Source: Mesorhizobium sp. M1C.F.Ca.ET.210.01.1.1
GTDB lineage: Bacteria > Pseudomonadota > Alphaproteobacteria > Rhizobiales > Rhizobiaceae
Length of the DNA: 64,000 nt
Direction: 5' to 3'
Assembly: GCF_004791585.1 (NCBI RefSeq)
Contig: NZ_SRUU01000012.1
Coordinates: 1 to 64,000, forward strand
A program made the translations under genes and the position numbers. The notes under the pieces were generated by a model. The model was not told the DNA's origin, ran no database searches, and saw only the letters and a program-made list of their open reading frames with translations. Every line of letters begins with the position of its first letter. Position 1 is the first letter of the stretch. This document shows, one piece after another, positions 5,848 through 55,070 of the stretch.

Positions 5848-6810
5848 ATGAACGCCACTGTCTTCTCCGGCTGCATGCCGGCGCTGATGACGCCTTGCAC
5901 CAACGACCGTCAGCCCGACTTCGAGGCGCTCGCGCGTAAGGGACGCGAGCTGATCGCCGCCGGCATGTCGGCGGTCGTCTATTGCGGATCCATGGGCGAT
6001 TGGCCGCTGCTGAGCGACGAGCAGCGCATGGAAGGCGTCGAGCGGCTGGTGAAGGCCGGCGTGCCGGTGATCGTCGGCACCGGCGCGGTCAACACCGCCA
6101 GCGCCGTGGCCCATGCCGCGCACGCCCAGAAAGTTGGCGCGCGCGGCCTGATGGTGATCCCACGCGTCTTGTCGCGCGGACCCTCGGTGACGGCGCAGCG
6201 CCACCACTTCAAGGCCATCCTCGCCGCCGCCCCCGACCTGCCGGCGGTCATCTACAACAGCCCCTATTACGGTTTTGCCACGCGCGCCGATCTCTTCTTC
6301 GCGCTGCGCGCCGAACATCCGAACCTGGTTGGCTTCAAGGAATTCGGCGGCCCGTCGGACCTGCGCTATGCGGCGGAAAACATCACCAGCCGTGACGATG
6401 AAGTCGCGCTCATGATCGGCGTCGACACCGCCGTCTTCCATGGCTTCGTCAATTGCGGCGCCTCGGGCGCCATCACCGGCATCGGCAACGTGCTGCCCAA
6501 GGAGGTGCTGCATCTCGTCGGCCTCAGCCAAGCGGCGGCGAAGGGCGATGCCGAAGCGCGCCGGCTGGCGCTGGAGCTGGACGCCGCGCTTGCCGTGCTG
6601 TCCTCCTTCGACGAGGGTCCGGACCTGGTGCTCTATTTCAAGCACATGATGGTTTTGAAGGGGAATCCCGAGTACCGGCTGCATTTCAACGAAACGGACG
6701 CGCTGAGCGACAGCCAGCGCGGCTATGCCGAGCAGCAGATCAAGCTCTTCGACGCCTGGTACGCGCAGTGGTCGAGGCAGCCCGGCGTGGTGGCGAGATA
6801 CGCTGCCTGA
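5848..6810 (+). CDS. Dihydrodipicolinate synthase family aldolase/deaminase
   Basis: A 320-residue TIM-barrel protein of the DapA/NAL family. It shows the family's GSMGDWPLL N-terminal loop (usually G-[ST]-T-G-E), the Tyr of VIYNSPYYG and the Schiff-base Lys in NLVGFKEFGG. Next to a proline racemase family gene the likely job is pyrroline-4-hydroxy-2-carboxylate deaminase, which makes alpha-ketoglutarate semialdehyde from hydroxyproline. That role comes from context, and other keto-acid aldolase activities are possible. The start is ATG 5848 after AAGGAGAATCCG. It is longer than E. coli DapA (about 290 residues). Confidence 0.82.
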   Translation: MNATVFSGCMPALMTPCTNDRQPDFEALARKGRELIAAGMSAVVYCGSMGDWPLLSDEQRMEGVERLVKAGVPVIVGTGAVNTASAVAHAAHAQKVGARGLMVIPRVLSRGPSVTAQRHHFKAILAAAPDLPAVIYNSPYYGFATRADLFFALRAEHPNLVGFKEFGGPSDLRYAAENITSRDDEVALMIGVDTAVFHGFVNCGASGAITGIGNVLPKEVLHLVGLSQAAAKGDAEARRLALELDAALAVLSSFDEGPDLVLYFKHMMVLKGNPEYRLHFNETDALSDSQRGYAEQQIKLFDAWYAQWSRQPGVVARYAA

Positions 6811-7193
6811 CCGGCCGGCATGGCGGCGGAAGCTTCCTAAGCCACAACGCTCCCTCCGCCGTCAAATTGGAACTGGCTTGTCCTGCTGCCCTGCCGGCAA
6901 ACCTCTCGCGATCTGGACGGATCGCCAGGATCGGCGAGTGCCTTCGAAAGCAGCGACAGCATCGGCTTCGCCCGACGTCCCGCCTTCCGTTTCACAAGCG
7001 AGGAGCTCGGCGTCTTATGACGCGAGGGTCCGGTGTTGCGAAGGCTCAGGATAGTCAAAAAAGTACCAATGACGGCACCGGAACATAGTGGCGCCGGTTT
7101 CGTCGGCTCAGTAGTCTGGCTGGCATGAGGCCGATGAGGGGAGCGCGTCGGCGAGGCGATCGCGCTGATGGCCTCGACACGGGAGGAACAGCG
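6811..7193. other. 383-base intergenic region
   Basis: No gene is supported here. Open frames on both strands are out of character in codon use and lack ribosome binding sites. The 3' part must hold the promoter of the AraC-type regulator, but I could not pick out clear -35 and -10 boxes. Confidence 0.5.
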
Positions 7194-8078
7194 ATGAAAC
7201 CTGATCTCGAGCTTGTGCAGATCAGGCCGGGCGAATCTTTCACCGCCTGGTCGCACGGCTATCCGTTCCGCACGGTGCGCTGGCATTTCCACCCGGAATA
7301 CGAGCTGCACCTCATCGTCGCCACCCGCGGCCGCTATTTCGTCGGCGACTTCATCGGCGAGTTCGAGCCGGGCAATCTCGTGCTGACCGGCCCCAACCTG
7401 CCGCACAATTGGGTGAGCGATGTGCCGAAGGACGCGACGGTGCCGCTGCGCTGCCGTATCATCCAGTTCAACGAGGGCTTCATCGACGGCGCCATCAACA
7501 CCTTCCCCGAGCTCGCGGCGCTGACGCCGGTGTTGGAGGCCTCGCGCCGCGGCGTGCAGTTCAGCCGGCAGACCAGCCGGCAGCTCGCGCCGTTGATGGA
7601 AGAGATCATGAATTCGCAAGGCGTGCGCCGCATCGAGCTGTTCATGATGATGATGGGCCTGCTCAGCCGTGCCGAGGGCGCGCGCATGCTCGCCAGCGCA
7701 AGCTATCTGCCGGACCCGTCGGGCTACATGTCGGCCGGCATCAACAAGGCGCTTGCCTATCTGCGCGAGAACCTGACCCAGCCCTTCAGTGAGACCGATC
7801 TCGCCGGCATCGCAGGCCAGTCGCCCAGCGTCTTCTCGCGCTCCTTCCGCCAGCACACCGGCATGACCTTGGTGCAGTATGTGAAACGGCTGCGCATCAA
7901 CCTGGCCTGCCAGATGCTGATGAGCGACGAGCTGGCCCCGATCACCAGCATCTGCTTCGAGGTCGGCTACAACACCCTTTCCAACTTCAACCGGCAGTTC
8001 CTCGCCGAAAAGGGCATGACGCCCTCGCATTTCCGGCGGCTGACGCTGCACAACATCAACCTGGCGAAAGCGGCCTAG
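7194..8078 (+). CDS. AraC family transcriptional regulator
   Basis: A 294-residue regulator. The N-terminal half (about 10-110) is a cupin-type sensing domain (HFHPEYELHLIVATRGRYFVGD). The C-terminal 100 residues hold two helix-turn-helix motifs, ending in the classic FEVGYNTLSNFNRQFLAEKGMTPSHFRR-type segment. The start is ATG 7194 with GGGAGGAACAGCG in front. It lies 68 bases upstream of the FGGY kinase on the same strand and probably controls that gene in response to a sugar, although no inducer can be inferred. Confidence 0.88.
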   Translation: MKPDLELVQIRPGESFTAWSHGYPFRTVRWHFHPEYELHLIVATRGRYFVGDFIGEFEPGNLVLTGPNLPHNWVSDVPKDATVPLRCRIIQFNEGFIDGAINTFPELAALTPVLEASRRGVQFSRQTSRQLAPLMEEIMNSQGVRRIELFMMMMGLLSRAEGARMLASASYLPDPSGYMSAGINKALAYLRENLTQPFSETDLAGIAGQSPSVFSRSFRQHTGMTLVQYVKRLRINLACQMLMSDELAPITSICFEVGYNTLSNFNRQFLAEKGMTPSHFRRLTLHNINLAKAA

Positions 8079-53003: not shown

Positions 53004-53094
53004 AACCTCGATTTTTCCGCGCGCCATTGCGAAAAAACCGCGGATCTGAATATAAGAAAGTATAATCGAACAAATCAGGCTCGAATATATGTGG

Positions 53095-53134
53095 AATACA
53101 ACCGGCGACAACCCCTAGTTTCGCCGATTGTATT
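53095..53134. promoter_or_regulatory. 14-bp inverted repeat upstream of the secreted-protein cluster
   Basis: AATACAACCGGCGA and TCGCCGATTGTATT pair with one mismatch around a 12-base loop. It lies 92 bases after the ogt-like gene and 105 before the first cluster gene. No T-run follows, so an operator or a leader structure is more likely than a terminator. Confidence 0.55.
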
Positions 53135-53205
53135 TCAAGCTGCTTGTCGTTGCTATTTCACTTAACGCGAAATTAACCATGATAAAGGGATGATGCCTCT
53201 ATATT

Positions 53206-53223
53206 GAGCTGCAATCTCAGCTC
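53206..53223 (+). promoter_or_regulatory. Short leader hairpin before the secreted-protein cluster
   Basis: GAGCTG-CAATCT-CAGCTC is a perfect 6-bp stem ending 5 bases before the GAGGGG ribosome binding site of the 53239 gene. It could influence translation or mRNA stability. Confidence 0.4.
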
Positions 53224-53238
53224 GAAAGAGGGGTCCCA

Positions 53239-53709
53239 ATGAAGTCCTTTCGCGCAGCAACGGCCGCGAGCTTGCTGGCCGCCTGCGCCGGCCAGACTGC
53301 ATCGGCAGCCACCGGAAACGTGCTGTTCAACGGCACCATCACTGCGACCTGCACGATCACGATCAACTCCAACGGCACGATGACAGTCAGCGCCAATCTC
53401 CAGTCGCTGAGCTCCCATAATGCCGGCGGTTCGGCAGGCAGCGCCCAGGTCGATACCACAGGTGGCGTCACGCTCAGCGTCGACCCGGTCACCTCCACCA
53501 CGGTGCCGGCCTCGGACACGACGGCCACGACATGGACCCCGACCTTCGCCACCTCCGGCGCGCAGACGATCGCGGAAACCGGCACCGCGACTGCGCTGAC
53601 GGTGCCGGGCACATCGACGGTCGCGGTCAACCTGGACGGCACCAAGAGCGGCTCAAACCGCTTCTCCGCCGGCAACTACCAGGCAACCGTCACACTGCGC
53701 TGCGAATAG
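53239..53709 (+). CDS. Secreted all-beta protein, SCPU/pilin-like (cluster gene A)
   Basis: A 156-residue protein with a signal peptide (AATAASLLAACAGQTASA). The mature chain is Thr/Ser/Gly-rich and all beta. It has an early Cys (TATCTITINSNG) and a terminal Cys in GNYQATVTLRCE, apt for a disulfide. The ending resembles chaperone-usher/spore-coat-U subunits and matches the end of cluster gene D. AGAGGGGTCCCA precedes ATG 53239. It is first of four tightly packed genes; the next starts 23 bases on. Confidence 0.7.
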   Translation: MKSFRAATAASLLAACAGQTASAATGNVLFNGTITATCTITINSNGTMTVSANLQSLSSHNAGGSAGSAQVDTTGGVTLSVDPVTSTTVPASDTTATTWTPTFATSGAQTIAETGTATALTVPGTSTVAVNLDGTKSGSNRFSAGNYQATVTLRCE

Positions 53710-53732
53710 CCCTCTCGCGAAAGGAGCGGTCC

Positions 53733-54122
53733 TTGAGAACGATTGGAACCCTGGCGGCGCTGGCCGTCGCGCTGCCTCCCGTTGCCGCGACGGGCCAGTC
53801 GATGACGCCGATGCGGGGCGAGGTTCGCTCCTTCACGGATGCCTTTGCCGTCCGGGTCTTCCCGGGCAATCCGTACGACCAGCGCATCCGGGTCGAGGTT
53901 CACGTCTATGACCAGGATTTCCAGCCGATCGATGCCAGGATCACGCCGAGCGTCTTCCTTCTGGCCGGCCAGGCGTCGCGTCCGGTTCTGGTCGTCGTCC
54001 CGTTCGACGGCGCGAGCGAGCGTAAAGTGCGTATCTGTACCGAGAGTATCCCCTTTCCCAGCGAGCAGACGCAGATAAGGGCACAGATATGCGGAAAGTT
54101 CTTCGGGCATCGCAGGTCCTGA
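53733..54122 (+). CDS. Secreted single-domain pilus-chaperone-like protein (cluster gene B)
   Basis: A 129-residue protein from TTG 53733, 6 bases after AAGGAG. A signal peptide (LAALAVALPPVAATGQS) is followed by one immunoglobulin-like domain resembling the N-terminal half of PapD-type chaperones (RVEVHVYDQDFQPIDARITP, then LLAGQASRPVLVVVPF and RKVRICTES). Normal chaperones have two domains and about 230 residues. Its end overlaps gene C by 34 bases. It probably escorts proteins A and D in the periplasm, an inference from layout. Confidence 0.65.
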   Translation: MRTIGTLAALAVALPPVAATGQSMTPMRGEVRSFTDAFAVRVFPGNPYDQRIRVEVHVYDQDFQPIDARITPSVFLLAGQASRPVLVVVPFDGASERKVRICTESIPFPSEQTQIRAQICGKFFGHRRS

Positions 54123-54613
54123 CGCTCTCCCTGCTGCCCGCCTTGGCGGTCGTAAGTCAGGTGTTGGCCGAGGATATCCTGAACCTGAACCAGAACCAGA
54201 CGGGTTTCACCTTGCCCGGCGTTTCTTTGCCCCAGGGCCAGGACGAGGTTCATGCTTCCGACGGCACGACCTGCCGCTCGGCCGTTTCCGGCAGCGGCGC
54301 CTATCTGGATGTCGGCGTCATCCGCGGCAACAGCAGCAGCCAGTCGAACAGCGACATCGCCACTTACGGCCGGGTGGTGCTTCCGATCGGGCGGACGCCG
54401 AAGCGCGTCGATTGCAGTCGTCTCTACGAGCTTGAAGTCGAGCGTCTGCAGCTTGAGTTGAAGCTCCTCAAGATGGGCCTCGGTGCCGACGGCCAGACGG
54501 GAAGCGTGGCTGCCCCTGCGGCTGCCCCCGCCACCGCTTCGGCCGGATGGGCCAACGAAGGCTGGAGCATCAGAGGCACAACCGGCAATGACAGGAAAAA
54601 GAAGAAGAAATAG
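54089..54613 (+). CDS. Secreted protein of unknown family (cluster gene C)
   Basis: A 174-residue protein with a signal peptide (VLTLSLLPALAVVSQVLAED). A conserved-looking Gly-rich segment (DGTTCRSAVSGSGAYLDVGV), a likely coiled coil (LYELEVERLQLELKLLKMG, about 113-131), an Ala/Pro linker and a poly-Lys tail follow. Two Cys residues may pair. It overlaps B by 34 bases and D by 26, so all are probably co-translated. I do not recognise the family. Confidence 0.65.
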   Translation: MRKVLRASQVLTLSLLPALAVVSQVLAEDILNLNQNQTGFTLPGVSLPQGQDEVHASDGTTCRSAVSGSGAYLDVGVIRGNSSSQSNSDIATYGRVVLPIGRTPKRVDCSRLYELEVERLQLELKLLKMGLGADGQTGSVAAPAAAPATASAGWANEGWSIRGTTGNDRKKKKK

Positions 54614-55070
54614 TCGACCGCTGCTGGCGATGTCCTTGCTTGCCGCCTTCCCTCTCCCGGCGCAAGCGGCGATCGTCGGCACCTGCACTATAGTGATCGG
54701 TGCCTCGGGAACGATGAAATCGAACCCGGCGATCAACATATTCGGCTCTAAGCAGGCGGGCGGGTCGAGCGCCGGCGCCACGATCACCGCGAGTTCGCTT
54801 CTGTGCACGATCCTCAACCTGCTGGACTGCTATTCCGTCTCCGCGCCGGCGCCGATCGCCTTTACTTCCGCGCCGAGCGGAGGCGACACCAACGTCACCT
54901 TTGATACGGTCTTCCGCCTTGACGGCTCGGGGGTCGATATACCCGGCAGCTCGCCGCAGCGGGTCATCAACGGCACCCACTCCGTCCAGGTCGATCTCAC
55001 GGCGACGAAATCATCCGGCATCTTCCCGGCAGGCAATTACCAGGGCACGGTCACCTTGCGCTGCGAATGA
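54588..55070 (+). CDS. Secreted all-beta protein, pilin-like (cluster gene D)
   Basis: A 160-residue protein starting at ATG 54588 inside gene C. It has a basic n-region and signal peptide (LLAMSLLAAFPLPAQA). The beta-rich chain has Cys pairs (GTCTIVIGASGTM, LLCTILNLLDCYS) and ends FPAGNYQGTVTLRCE, nearly the same as gene A. It is probably a partner subunit of A. The longer in-frame start at 54483 would remove the signal peptide logic. Confidence 0.68.
   Translation: MTGKRRRNSRPLLAMSLLAAFPLPAQAAIVGTCTIVIGASGTMKSNPAINIFGSKQAGGSSAGATITASSLLCTILNLLDCYSVSAPAPIAFTSAPSGGDTNVTFDTVFRLDGSGVDIPGSSPQRVINGTHSVQVDLTATKSSGIFPAGNYQGTVTLRCE

Follow-up and report, generated by a model that had tools for sequence, protein, structure and literature searches.

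A recurring four-gene set with a pilin-like subunit and a half-size chaperone-like protein, which may build a surface fibre without an usher

The window, the whole stretch of 64,000 nucleotides that was analysed, carries four adjacent genes (A-B-C-D, 53239 to 55070) that form a real, recurring unit in soil bacteria and may represent a hitherto undescribed route to a surface fibre. Our preferred reading, which we hold at a probability of about 0.57, is that A-B-C-D is a CtrA-controlled, donor-strand-type surface fibre system that has a one-domain chaperone and lacks an usher. The computed observations are a conserved unit, homology between A and D, a pilin-like model of A, no recognisable usher, a conserved CtrA-type box and counterparts in phages. 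If the reading is true, an usher-less operon with half a chaperone shows which parts of the chaperone-usher machine are dispensable. No description of the A-B-C-D set was found in the searches made of open-access papers.

Gene A (53239..53709, + strand) encodes a predicted pilin-like subunit of 156 aa with an apparent signal peptide, gene B (53733..54122, +) a putative half-size (single-domain) PapD-type chaperone of 129 aa, gene C (54089..54613, +) an apparently secreted protein of 174 aa with no family assigned, and gene D (54588..55070, +) a 160-aa paralogue of A. Signal peptides of all four were assessed by eye. The start codon of B is TTG, and AAAGGAG is found at 53720-53726. The tight packing reported in the initial annotation was borne out, with a gap of 23 nt between A and B, overlaps of 34 nt (B-C) and 26 nt (C-D), and all four genes on the forward strand. 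None of A, B, C or D reached the cut-off of any Pfam or NCBIfam model.

The initial annotation had proposed looking for the gene order beyond this strain, and there it was conserved: A-B-C-D occurred in order at 79 of the 80 loci found through C (the best 80 of 107 confirmed), and the lone exception, L092, is truncated by a contig end. At ten of the 80, open-frame starts put B before A and match positions put A first. A tally of 100 loci, some of which are the same contig counted twice, gave 89 A-B-C-D, five A-B-C, three A-B-C-D-D and one A-B-C-D-B-C, with L057 and L092 incomplete. The order was also kept in divergent genomes. Most Mesorhizobium/Aminobacter loci have the set between a methylguanine-methyltransferase-domain gene and a PfkB-family sugar kinase gene; Aureimonas and its kin keep the order in different genomic surroundings, and the set is also present on plasmid NZ_CP083953.1. 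The system is patchy, with B found in 16 of 121 genomes of the family.

Whether A and D might be unrelated was settled by profile comparison, which found them homologous (hhalign P 3.7e-38); judged by sequence, D is a paralogue of A. The ending that they had been said to share, GNYQ-x-TVTLRCE, is indeed common to both, and a C-terminal CE is present in 79 of 92 distinct A rows (two rows labelled A, L057 and L092, are really D) and in 87/87 D rows. The AlphaFold2 model of A (pLDDT 92.5, pTM 0.78) resembles a pilin. Chaperone-usher pili made up 45 of the 50 listed Foldseek rows, none under E 0.001, and the best match was CfaB (4y2l_F, E 2.4e-3, prob 1.00); the best VIA Z was near 6, a level at which matches include other beta sandwiches.

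For A, this model agrees with the pilin half of the earlier "SCPU/pilin-type" label given to A and D; the sequence evidence did not uphold the SCPU half. A and D were unrelated by sequence to the SCPU subunits of the carriers' true chaperone-usher loci (hhalign 0.8-4.4%), and an ordinary SCPU/archaic operon was rejected; the Pfam listing for 80 A/D members contained neither SCPU nor DUF4402 at E <= 0.1. A DUF4402 identity was also dropped, the matches in the strain's own genome (E 0.54 and 0.72) both lying on other contigs. PDB sequence searches with three profiles gave nothing convincing. The second PDB row for the A/D profile, "Ferrous iron transporter B" (E 0.47), has an alignment confined to the signal peptide and the region of the first Cys, and was set aside.

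By predicted cleavage, mature A has an N-terminal extension before its first Cys, ATGNVLFNGTITATC, which the model places outside any strand, and mature D begins AIVGTC, without the extension. When a crude cleavage rule was used to set the mature N-terminus, the stretch up to the first Cys was 15 residues long in 25 of 42 non-redundant A rows and six residues long in 24 of 46 rows for D. Since 2 to 30 residues precede the first Cys among D rows, loss of the extension in D is not general. The two cysteines of mature A lie near both chain ends; the usual pilin Cys pair is placed otherwise.

B had been likened to the N-terminal domain of PapD. What resemblance there is falls on domain 1: hhalign against 19 two-domain chaperones gave 96.0% for full-length sequences and only a moderate 49.4% for mature ones, the link to PapD being 31-53% once signal peptides were removed. 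The score against two-domain chaperones was 31.4, compared with a best of 17.8 among 150 column-shuffled controls, while none of A, D and C scored above 2.1% with an earlier chaperone set of this kind. B covers residues 1-123 (local) or 1-144 (forced global) of chaperones of 239 aa; the mature local alignment has 66 columns and ends before the last strand, where the forced global alignment is gapped. At 129 aa and matching only the first part, B is not a two-domain PapD-like chaperone. Two cysteines, C102 and C120, are invariant in 38/38 B members. None of the 38 matched Pfam PapD_N at E <= 0.5, the strain's own genome gave no PapD_N match, and the B profile found no chaperone among PDB sequences at E <= 10.

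An usher had been reported missing from the set, and this was confirmed: the usher model (PF00577) had no match anywhere in the strain's own assembly, the operon included, which also disposed of an unlinked usher there. The further question, whether an usher ever accompanies the set, had a divided answer. With the Pfam usher model as the sole probe, in genomes some of which are drafts and with carriers taken from 40 of 80 named loci, no match was found in 32 of 39 carrier genomes and one was found in the other 7; a tally of 16 carriers gave 14 without a match and 2 with one. The nine phage records and one plasmid record carrying the set or C also had no usher match. Two of the carriers' usher loci were read from end to end, and each is a complete SCPU-PapD-usher operon. 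Having neither an usher nor a two-domain chaperone, A-B-C-D falls outside the definition of a chaperone-usher system.

A CtrA-type box, TTAA-N7-TTAACC (53162..53178, +), begins 77 nt before the A start codon and is the sole match in the 64 kb, with 0 in 100 shuffles. TTAA-N7-TTAA is given as the CtrA motif in a passage of PMC11264516, and its position upstream of A makes the set a predicted member of the CtrA regulon. An exact TTAA-N7-TTAA lies within 120 nt upstream of A at 40 of 80 loci (including L092, where D stands for A), with 4 boxes elsewhere in the same loci. Counted over 80 distinct upstream regions, the window included, there were 41 exact boxes with 17 different spacers; another 24 regions have the box in the same place with one mismatch, and 15 have two or three mismatches. 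Loci of the Aureimonas type lack the box, as do L106 and L107 from Mesorhizobium. In the strain's own genome the same motif precedes minC and a Flp-type pilin gene, among others, and it is also found near genes with no evident CtrA tie. Such a site would tie the bacterial version of the set to cell-cycle control.

The initial annotation did not mention this box; the two upstream features that it did name are present: an inverted repeat (53092-53108 / 53121-53137, no strand; 17-nt arms, 88%) and a leader hairpin before A (53196-53211 / 53218-53233, +; 75%). RNA of 53095-53240 folds with z = -4.58, and 0 of 200 shuffles were equally good. Across 61 aligned upstream regions the CtrA-type box is conserved and the right arm of the repeat poorly so; the repeat is therefore probably not a required element, and its candidacy as a regulatory element was dropped.

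Relatives of C were found in 130 Vibrio phage records, and all six phage cassettes that were read have A-, B- and C-like genes in the same order. Window C matched phrog_37374 at E 2.8e-12. PHROG 25895, 25455 and 37374 (function unassigned) contain the A-, B- and C-like proteins of the phages, respectively; window A and B gave no direct match to the first two at E <= 0.01, nor window A to the phage records at that level, and the link of the phage A-like proteins to A rests on profiles. The phage cassettes differ from the bacterial set in that no D was recognised, a large unrelated gene stands before them and the setting is a lytic phage. This large gene was considered as an usher and rejected, with no Pfam family at E <= 0.01 (3 of 6 seen) and no usher in the records. 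Small genes, including one that looks by eye like a lipoprotein gene, follow the cassettes in lytic Vibrio phages; a holin and an endolysin follow them in two T5-like phages. Scans of viral contigs returned 0 relatives with the bacterial C profile and 4 with the phage C profile. In jumbo phages C is supported (96.0%), while the A-like and B-like neighbours score 0.3% or less against A and B, and the B-like neighbour 2.4% against canonical chaperones; because these neighbours are not detectably related, the jumbo-phage loci were not taken as further examples of the system. That lytic phages have a comparable set of three parts prompts the question why a phage would carry a pilus-like module.

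In the mechanism that we propose, all four proteins would reach the periplasm by the Sec route, as their N-termini suggest. B would hold each subunit by donating its final strand to the incomplete pilin fold; A would polymerise by strand exchange through its donor-type N-terminal extension, and D, without an extension in this clade, could be the tip or first subunit. C, the most widely shared component, may serve as the dedicated envelope partner, as an anchor or exit site, and the fibre would be exported to the surface. In the Mesorhizobium/Aminobacter clade CtrA probably turns on transcription. In PapD-type chaperones it is domain 2 that works with the usher, so joint loss of that domain and the usher is coherent, and their being lost together yields a direct prediction on what the domain is for.

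Chance adjacency of unrelated small secreted genes, which the lack of a family annotation for any of the four might suggest, is already refuted by an order kept at 79/80 loci and in divergent genomes. We regard it as highly improbable that A-B-C-D is an ordinary chaperone-usher operon that lost its own usher and borrows one encoded elsewhere: usher genes do occur in 7/39 carriers (2/16 in the other tally), but the strain's own genome has neither an usher nor a PapD_N match, and the remaining 32 carriers, some of them drafts, the phage records and the plasmid record are likewise without a match to the Pfam usher model. A rather unlikely account, though one with some weight, is that the proteins work inside the envelope, or shield the cell surface (against phages, for instance), and make no fibre, the phage copies being a superinfection-exclusion or late envelope-remodelling module. 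The presence of A-, B- and C-like genes in lytic Vibrio phages, upstream of a lipoprotein-like gene or of holin and endolysin, speaks for it, as does the fact that a pilus is of no obvious use to a phage; the pilin-like model of A, with its extension outside any strand, speaks against it, and the cell-cycle-type regulatory site of the bacterial operon is more in keeping with an appendage than with a defence gene.

C allows a reading that extends the fibre explanation and is compatible with it, in which C is an oligomeric outer-membrane part. Each subunit would contribute a disulphide-clamped beta-hairpin to a ring-shaped barrel standing above a coiled coil in the periplasm, and this barrel would be an exit channel replacing the usher. 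The conserved core of C (residues 39-130) contains Cys62 and Cys109, invariant in 45/45, a strand pair (71-78 / 93-100, in a low-confidence model) and a helix (110-131). Along most of each strand hydrophobic and polar residues alternate, and D74 and R95 fall on the polar side; the loop between the strands is variable, and of the components it is C that can be recognised in every group, including the jumbo phages. Nevertheless, positions 78 and 97 break the alternation, beta-hairpins can be amphipathic for many reasons, the Cys62-Cys109 bond is assumed, and the monomer model is not confident (pLDDT 56.8, pTM 0.27), so poor that a structure of C based on it was set aside. The second structural comparison by VIA had no row at Z >= 2 among 67 chains and was uninformative on the fold. 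We consider this channel doubtful. A broader proposal, that C defines a new export-and-assembly module common to Alphaproteobacteria and lytic phages, with C oligomers as outer-membrane exit and base, B as one-domain chaperone and A polymerising through the exit by strand exchange, so that no usher or other known channel is needed, is speculative and in our view unlikely. The poly-Lys tail ascribed to C is present in 3 of 17 aligned relatives, a count that includes the window.

Returning to the usher-less fibre reading, the set is like the chaperone-usher pathway (classical, alternative and archaic; Fim, Pap, CfaB, Caf1, Csu) in its pilin-like subunit model with an N-terminal extension, its PapD-like chaperone domain (on moderate evidence) and its adjacent subunit and chaperone genes. 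It differs in having no usher, a one-domain chaperone, an extra constant gene C, subunits that reach no Pfam pilin family and a Cys pair near both chain ends. In Caf1M a Cys pair joins the last two strands of domain 1, and C102 and C120 of B are by eye at the corresponding places of such (FGL) chaperones; Caf1M is a two-domain protein that functions together with an usher, whereas B would have one domain. To our knowledge, every PapD-type assembly line ends in an usher. Assembly without one is described for TasA/TapA of Bacillus subtilis, where, according to PMC10151520, a dedicated chaperone donates a strand completing the subunit. The likeness to A-D would lie in the mode of assembly. B. subtilis is Gram-positive, with no outer membrane; its system has no C, and TapA donates its N terminus, whereas B would donate its last strand.

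Some loci stand at the edge of the family. The B-like genes at L039-L041 stand alone, with neither C nor D nor a convincing A in the vicinity; at L041 a 42-residue A match (E 0.005) lies ~5 kb from the B-like gene. Since L131, L132 and L144 already contribute rows to alignments A8 and A9, the match in genome G676 proves nothing new, and independent support for these three loci comes from profiles built without them. In genome G834 (L196), C is recognised at 97.4%, B at 50.9% and A at 3.5%, in the order B-C-A.

The four genes lie on the forward strand, A at 53239-53709, B at 53733-54122, C at 54089-54613 and D at 54588-55070. These coordinates confirmed the tight packing described in the initial annotation, whose observation of a cluster stands. 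Its suspicion of an usher-less system was largely borne out, in that A-D form a conserved set with a pilin-like subunit, an apparent half of a PapD-type chaperone (B) and a new hallmark protein (C). The N-terminus of each looked by eye like a signal peptide. None of the four reached a Pfam or NCBIfam cut-off, and the sole sub-threshold rows given were AMIN-like for A (E 0.19) and Ca_tandemer for C (E 0.023). No consistent Pfam family was found among the 80 A/D, 38 B and 39 C relatives scanned; one family matched 3 of the 38 B members and all others a single member each. The Mesorhizobium signal peptide of A (53239-53289, the start of A) contains a lipobox-like LAAC/LVAC, absent in several other genera; cleavage by signal peptidase I at AxA seems more likely than use of the lipobox.

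The source genome (GCF_004791585.1) gave no matches to the Pfam usher model or to PapD_N. An usher was present in 2 of 16 and in 7 of 39 carrier genomes (partly overlapping sets), and at the two usher loci examined in full it belonged to a separate SCPU-PapD-usher operon. None was found in the nine phage records and one plasmid record searched. Because an usher and a two-domain chaperone were sought and not found, A-D is placed outside the chaperone-usher family. The system most likely resembles a chaperone-usher system in the first half of its mechanism; donor-strand exchange, export of the products and the task of C are inferred.

B was present in 16 of 121 genomes sampled from the same family (source genome counted). 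A C-profile scan of named genomes confirmed 107 loci, and the best 80 were retained; they fell mostly in Mesorhizobium, and also in Aminobacter, Aureimonas, Fulvimarina, Antarcticirhabdus, Consotaella and several MAGs. The order A-B-C-D was found at 79 of these best 80, the exception (L092) beginning at a contig end within B. Over 100 loci, a count that includes some contigs twice, the orders were A-B-C-D (89), A-B-C (5), A-B-C-D-D (3) and A-B-C-D-B-C (1), plus L092 and L057. At L057 A and B were each detected in two frames, as was A at L058. Wider profile searches, each counting the source genome, recovered C from 6 of 297 genomes at order level, 2 of 337 at class level and 7 of 299 at phylum level. 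Four diverged copies (L131, L132, L144 and L197) have A-B-C without D, so the minimal unit is A, B and C. A gene with a methylguanine-methyltransferase domain on one side and a PfkB-family sugar kinase on the other flank most Mesorhizobium and Aminobacter loci. The neighbours of the unit differ in Aureimonas and related genera, and likewise on a plasmid from Mesorhizobium that has the four genes annotated as 'hypothetical protein'.

The two-frame A and B of L057 (Mesorhizobium tamadayense, around 7486-7783) represent a frameshift or a sequencing error. The A-B-C-D-B-C locus, L037 (5653-8340), is a single cluster with two chaperone/C pairs. Lone distant B-like genes were seen at L039 (6191-6679), L040 (around 6345-6821) and L041 (around 7364-7987), in genomes that carry the full operon too; by eye, their Cys pair is seemingly retained.

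A is homologous to D (hhalign P 3.7e-38). The AlphaFold2 model of A, built from 78 sequences, had a pLDDT of 92.5 and a pTM of 0.78, with no strand over residues 24-37. In a Foldseek search of the PDB, chaperone-usher pilus chains, including CfaB, Caf1, CsuA/B, FimA, PapE, PapH and the PapG pilin domain, made up 45 of the 50 listed rows; the best match had E 2.4e-3 (probability 1.00), and none of 594 fell below E 0.001. Because the VIA comparison gave Z near 6 for such pilins and likewise for other sandwiches, a pilin fold of A is suggested by the model, not proved. Under a crude cleavage rule, the mature chain up to the first Cys is 15 residues long in 25 of the 42 A rows and 6 long in 24 of the 46 D rows (2 to 30 in the remaining D rows). 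We read this as a putative donor extension in A that is missing from D of the window's clade; lacking it, D would be the tip in that clade. The 92 distinct A-labelled rows, two of them actually D, included 79 with a Cys-Glu C-terminus; all 87 D-labelled rows had it.

Against 19 canonical two-domain chaperones, B matched best on their residues 1-123, which is domain 1. With signal peptides included the comparison gave 96.0% (P 4.9e-9), and without them 31-53% across four comparisons. The main mature comparison (49.4%) scored 31.4 versus a best of 17.8 among 150 column-shuffled controls; its alignment covers 66 columns and stops short of the last strand. Forcing a global alignment with the signal peptides left in (96.3%) opened a gap at that strand. 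Adding phage and other relatives to B gave 68.6% without signal peptides. Speaking against the link, PapD_N was matched by none of 38 B members, and a PDB sequence search with B found no chaperone. C102 and C120 are invariant (38/38); a basic residue occupies position 28 in 36 of these sequences and position 122 in 37. By eye, we take the Cys pair and these positions to correspond to the strand pair and two anchor residues of PapD-type chaperones. B looks like half a PapD-type chaperone.

C is the new hallmark protein of the system, with 18 invariant columns across 38 sequences. Its model was of low quality (pLDDT 56.8); it shows paired strands (71-78 and 93-100) and a helix (110-131), the sole part with a pLDDT near 80. 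Across 45 sequences, phages included, the strands for the most part alternate hydrophobic and polar residues, with breaks at positions 78 and 97 and with D74 (42/45) and R95 (43/45) on the polar side; Cys62 and Cys109 are present in all 45. These features would suit an oligomeric outer-membrane hairpin.

In the clade of the window a CtrA-type site precedes the operon, and lytic phages have a counterpart of the system. A CtrA-type box, TTAA-N7-TTAACC, at 53162-53178 is the sole match in 64 kb, with none in 100 shuffles. The exact TTAA-N7-TTAA occurred within 120 nt upstream of A at 40 of 80 loci, and the rest of the sequence of those loci had just four occurrences. Of 80 distinct upstream regions, the window's among them, 41 had the exact box, with 17 different spacers, 24 were one base off at the same place, and 15 were off by two or three; the last were Aureimonas-type loci, Mesorhizobium L106 and L107, and L092, where D takes the place of A. 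According to PMC11264516, TTAA-N7-TTAA is the CtrA consensus and most CtrA-activated promoters have a single site at -35. In the source genome the motif with CC gave 17 matches at 14 places on both strands (reversed control, 2). Gene starts within 400 nt downstream included those of minC, two outer-membrane beta-barrel proteins, an ABC-type ATPase that we read as ftsE and a Flp-type pilin (sub-threshold, 24.2 bits versus Pfam's 32.2), but also those of a phasin and of genes without an evident CtrA tie; at two places (L181/L182 and L186) no called gene followed within 400 nt. Upstream of the box, 61 aligned regions revealed a conserved stretch (53097-53122) around ACAACC and CGACAACC, then GTTT, perhaps the site of a second regulator.

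The window's C matched 130 phage records, Vibrio throughout, over less than half of its length, and PHROG family 37374 (unknown function) at E 2.8e-12. Phage-derived queries matched 185 records for C and 179 each for A and B. In all six cassettes examined (L194, L195, L198, L200, L201 and L202), a gene for 770-864 residues is directly followed by A, B and C; the cassettes come from siphophages (about 59 kb), further phages (about 80 kb) and two T5-like Demerecviridae. The one such gene tested belonged to phrog_10818 (unknown function), and three tested had no Pfam family. Compared with the bacterial proteins, phage A gave 97.9% (mature, P 3.4e-13), phage B 89.3% with its signal peptide and 27.5% without it, and phage C E about 1e-22 (two loci). 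Small genes lie 3' of phage C, one lipoprotein-like by eye, followed in the two Demerecviridae by holin and endolysin. C was further found in 24 records of Klebsiella, Serratia, Erwinia, Stenotrophomonas and Raoultella phages; in three examined, its neighbours were of fitting size with no detectable relation to A or B. In the jumbo phages L199 (3598-4848), L203 (2598-3909) and L204 (2607-3879), C lies between two genes, one the size of a chaperone and one that of a pilin, which have apparent signal peptides but no detectable sequence relation to A or B; this is possibly a diverged form of the system.
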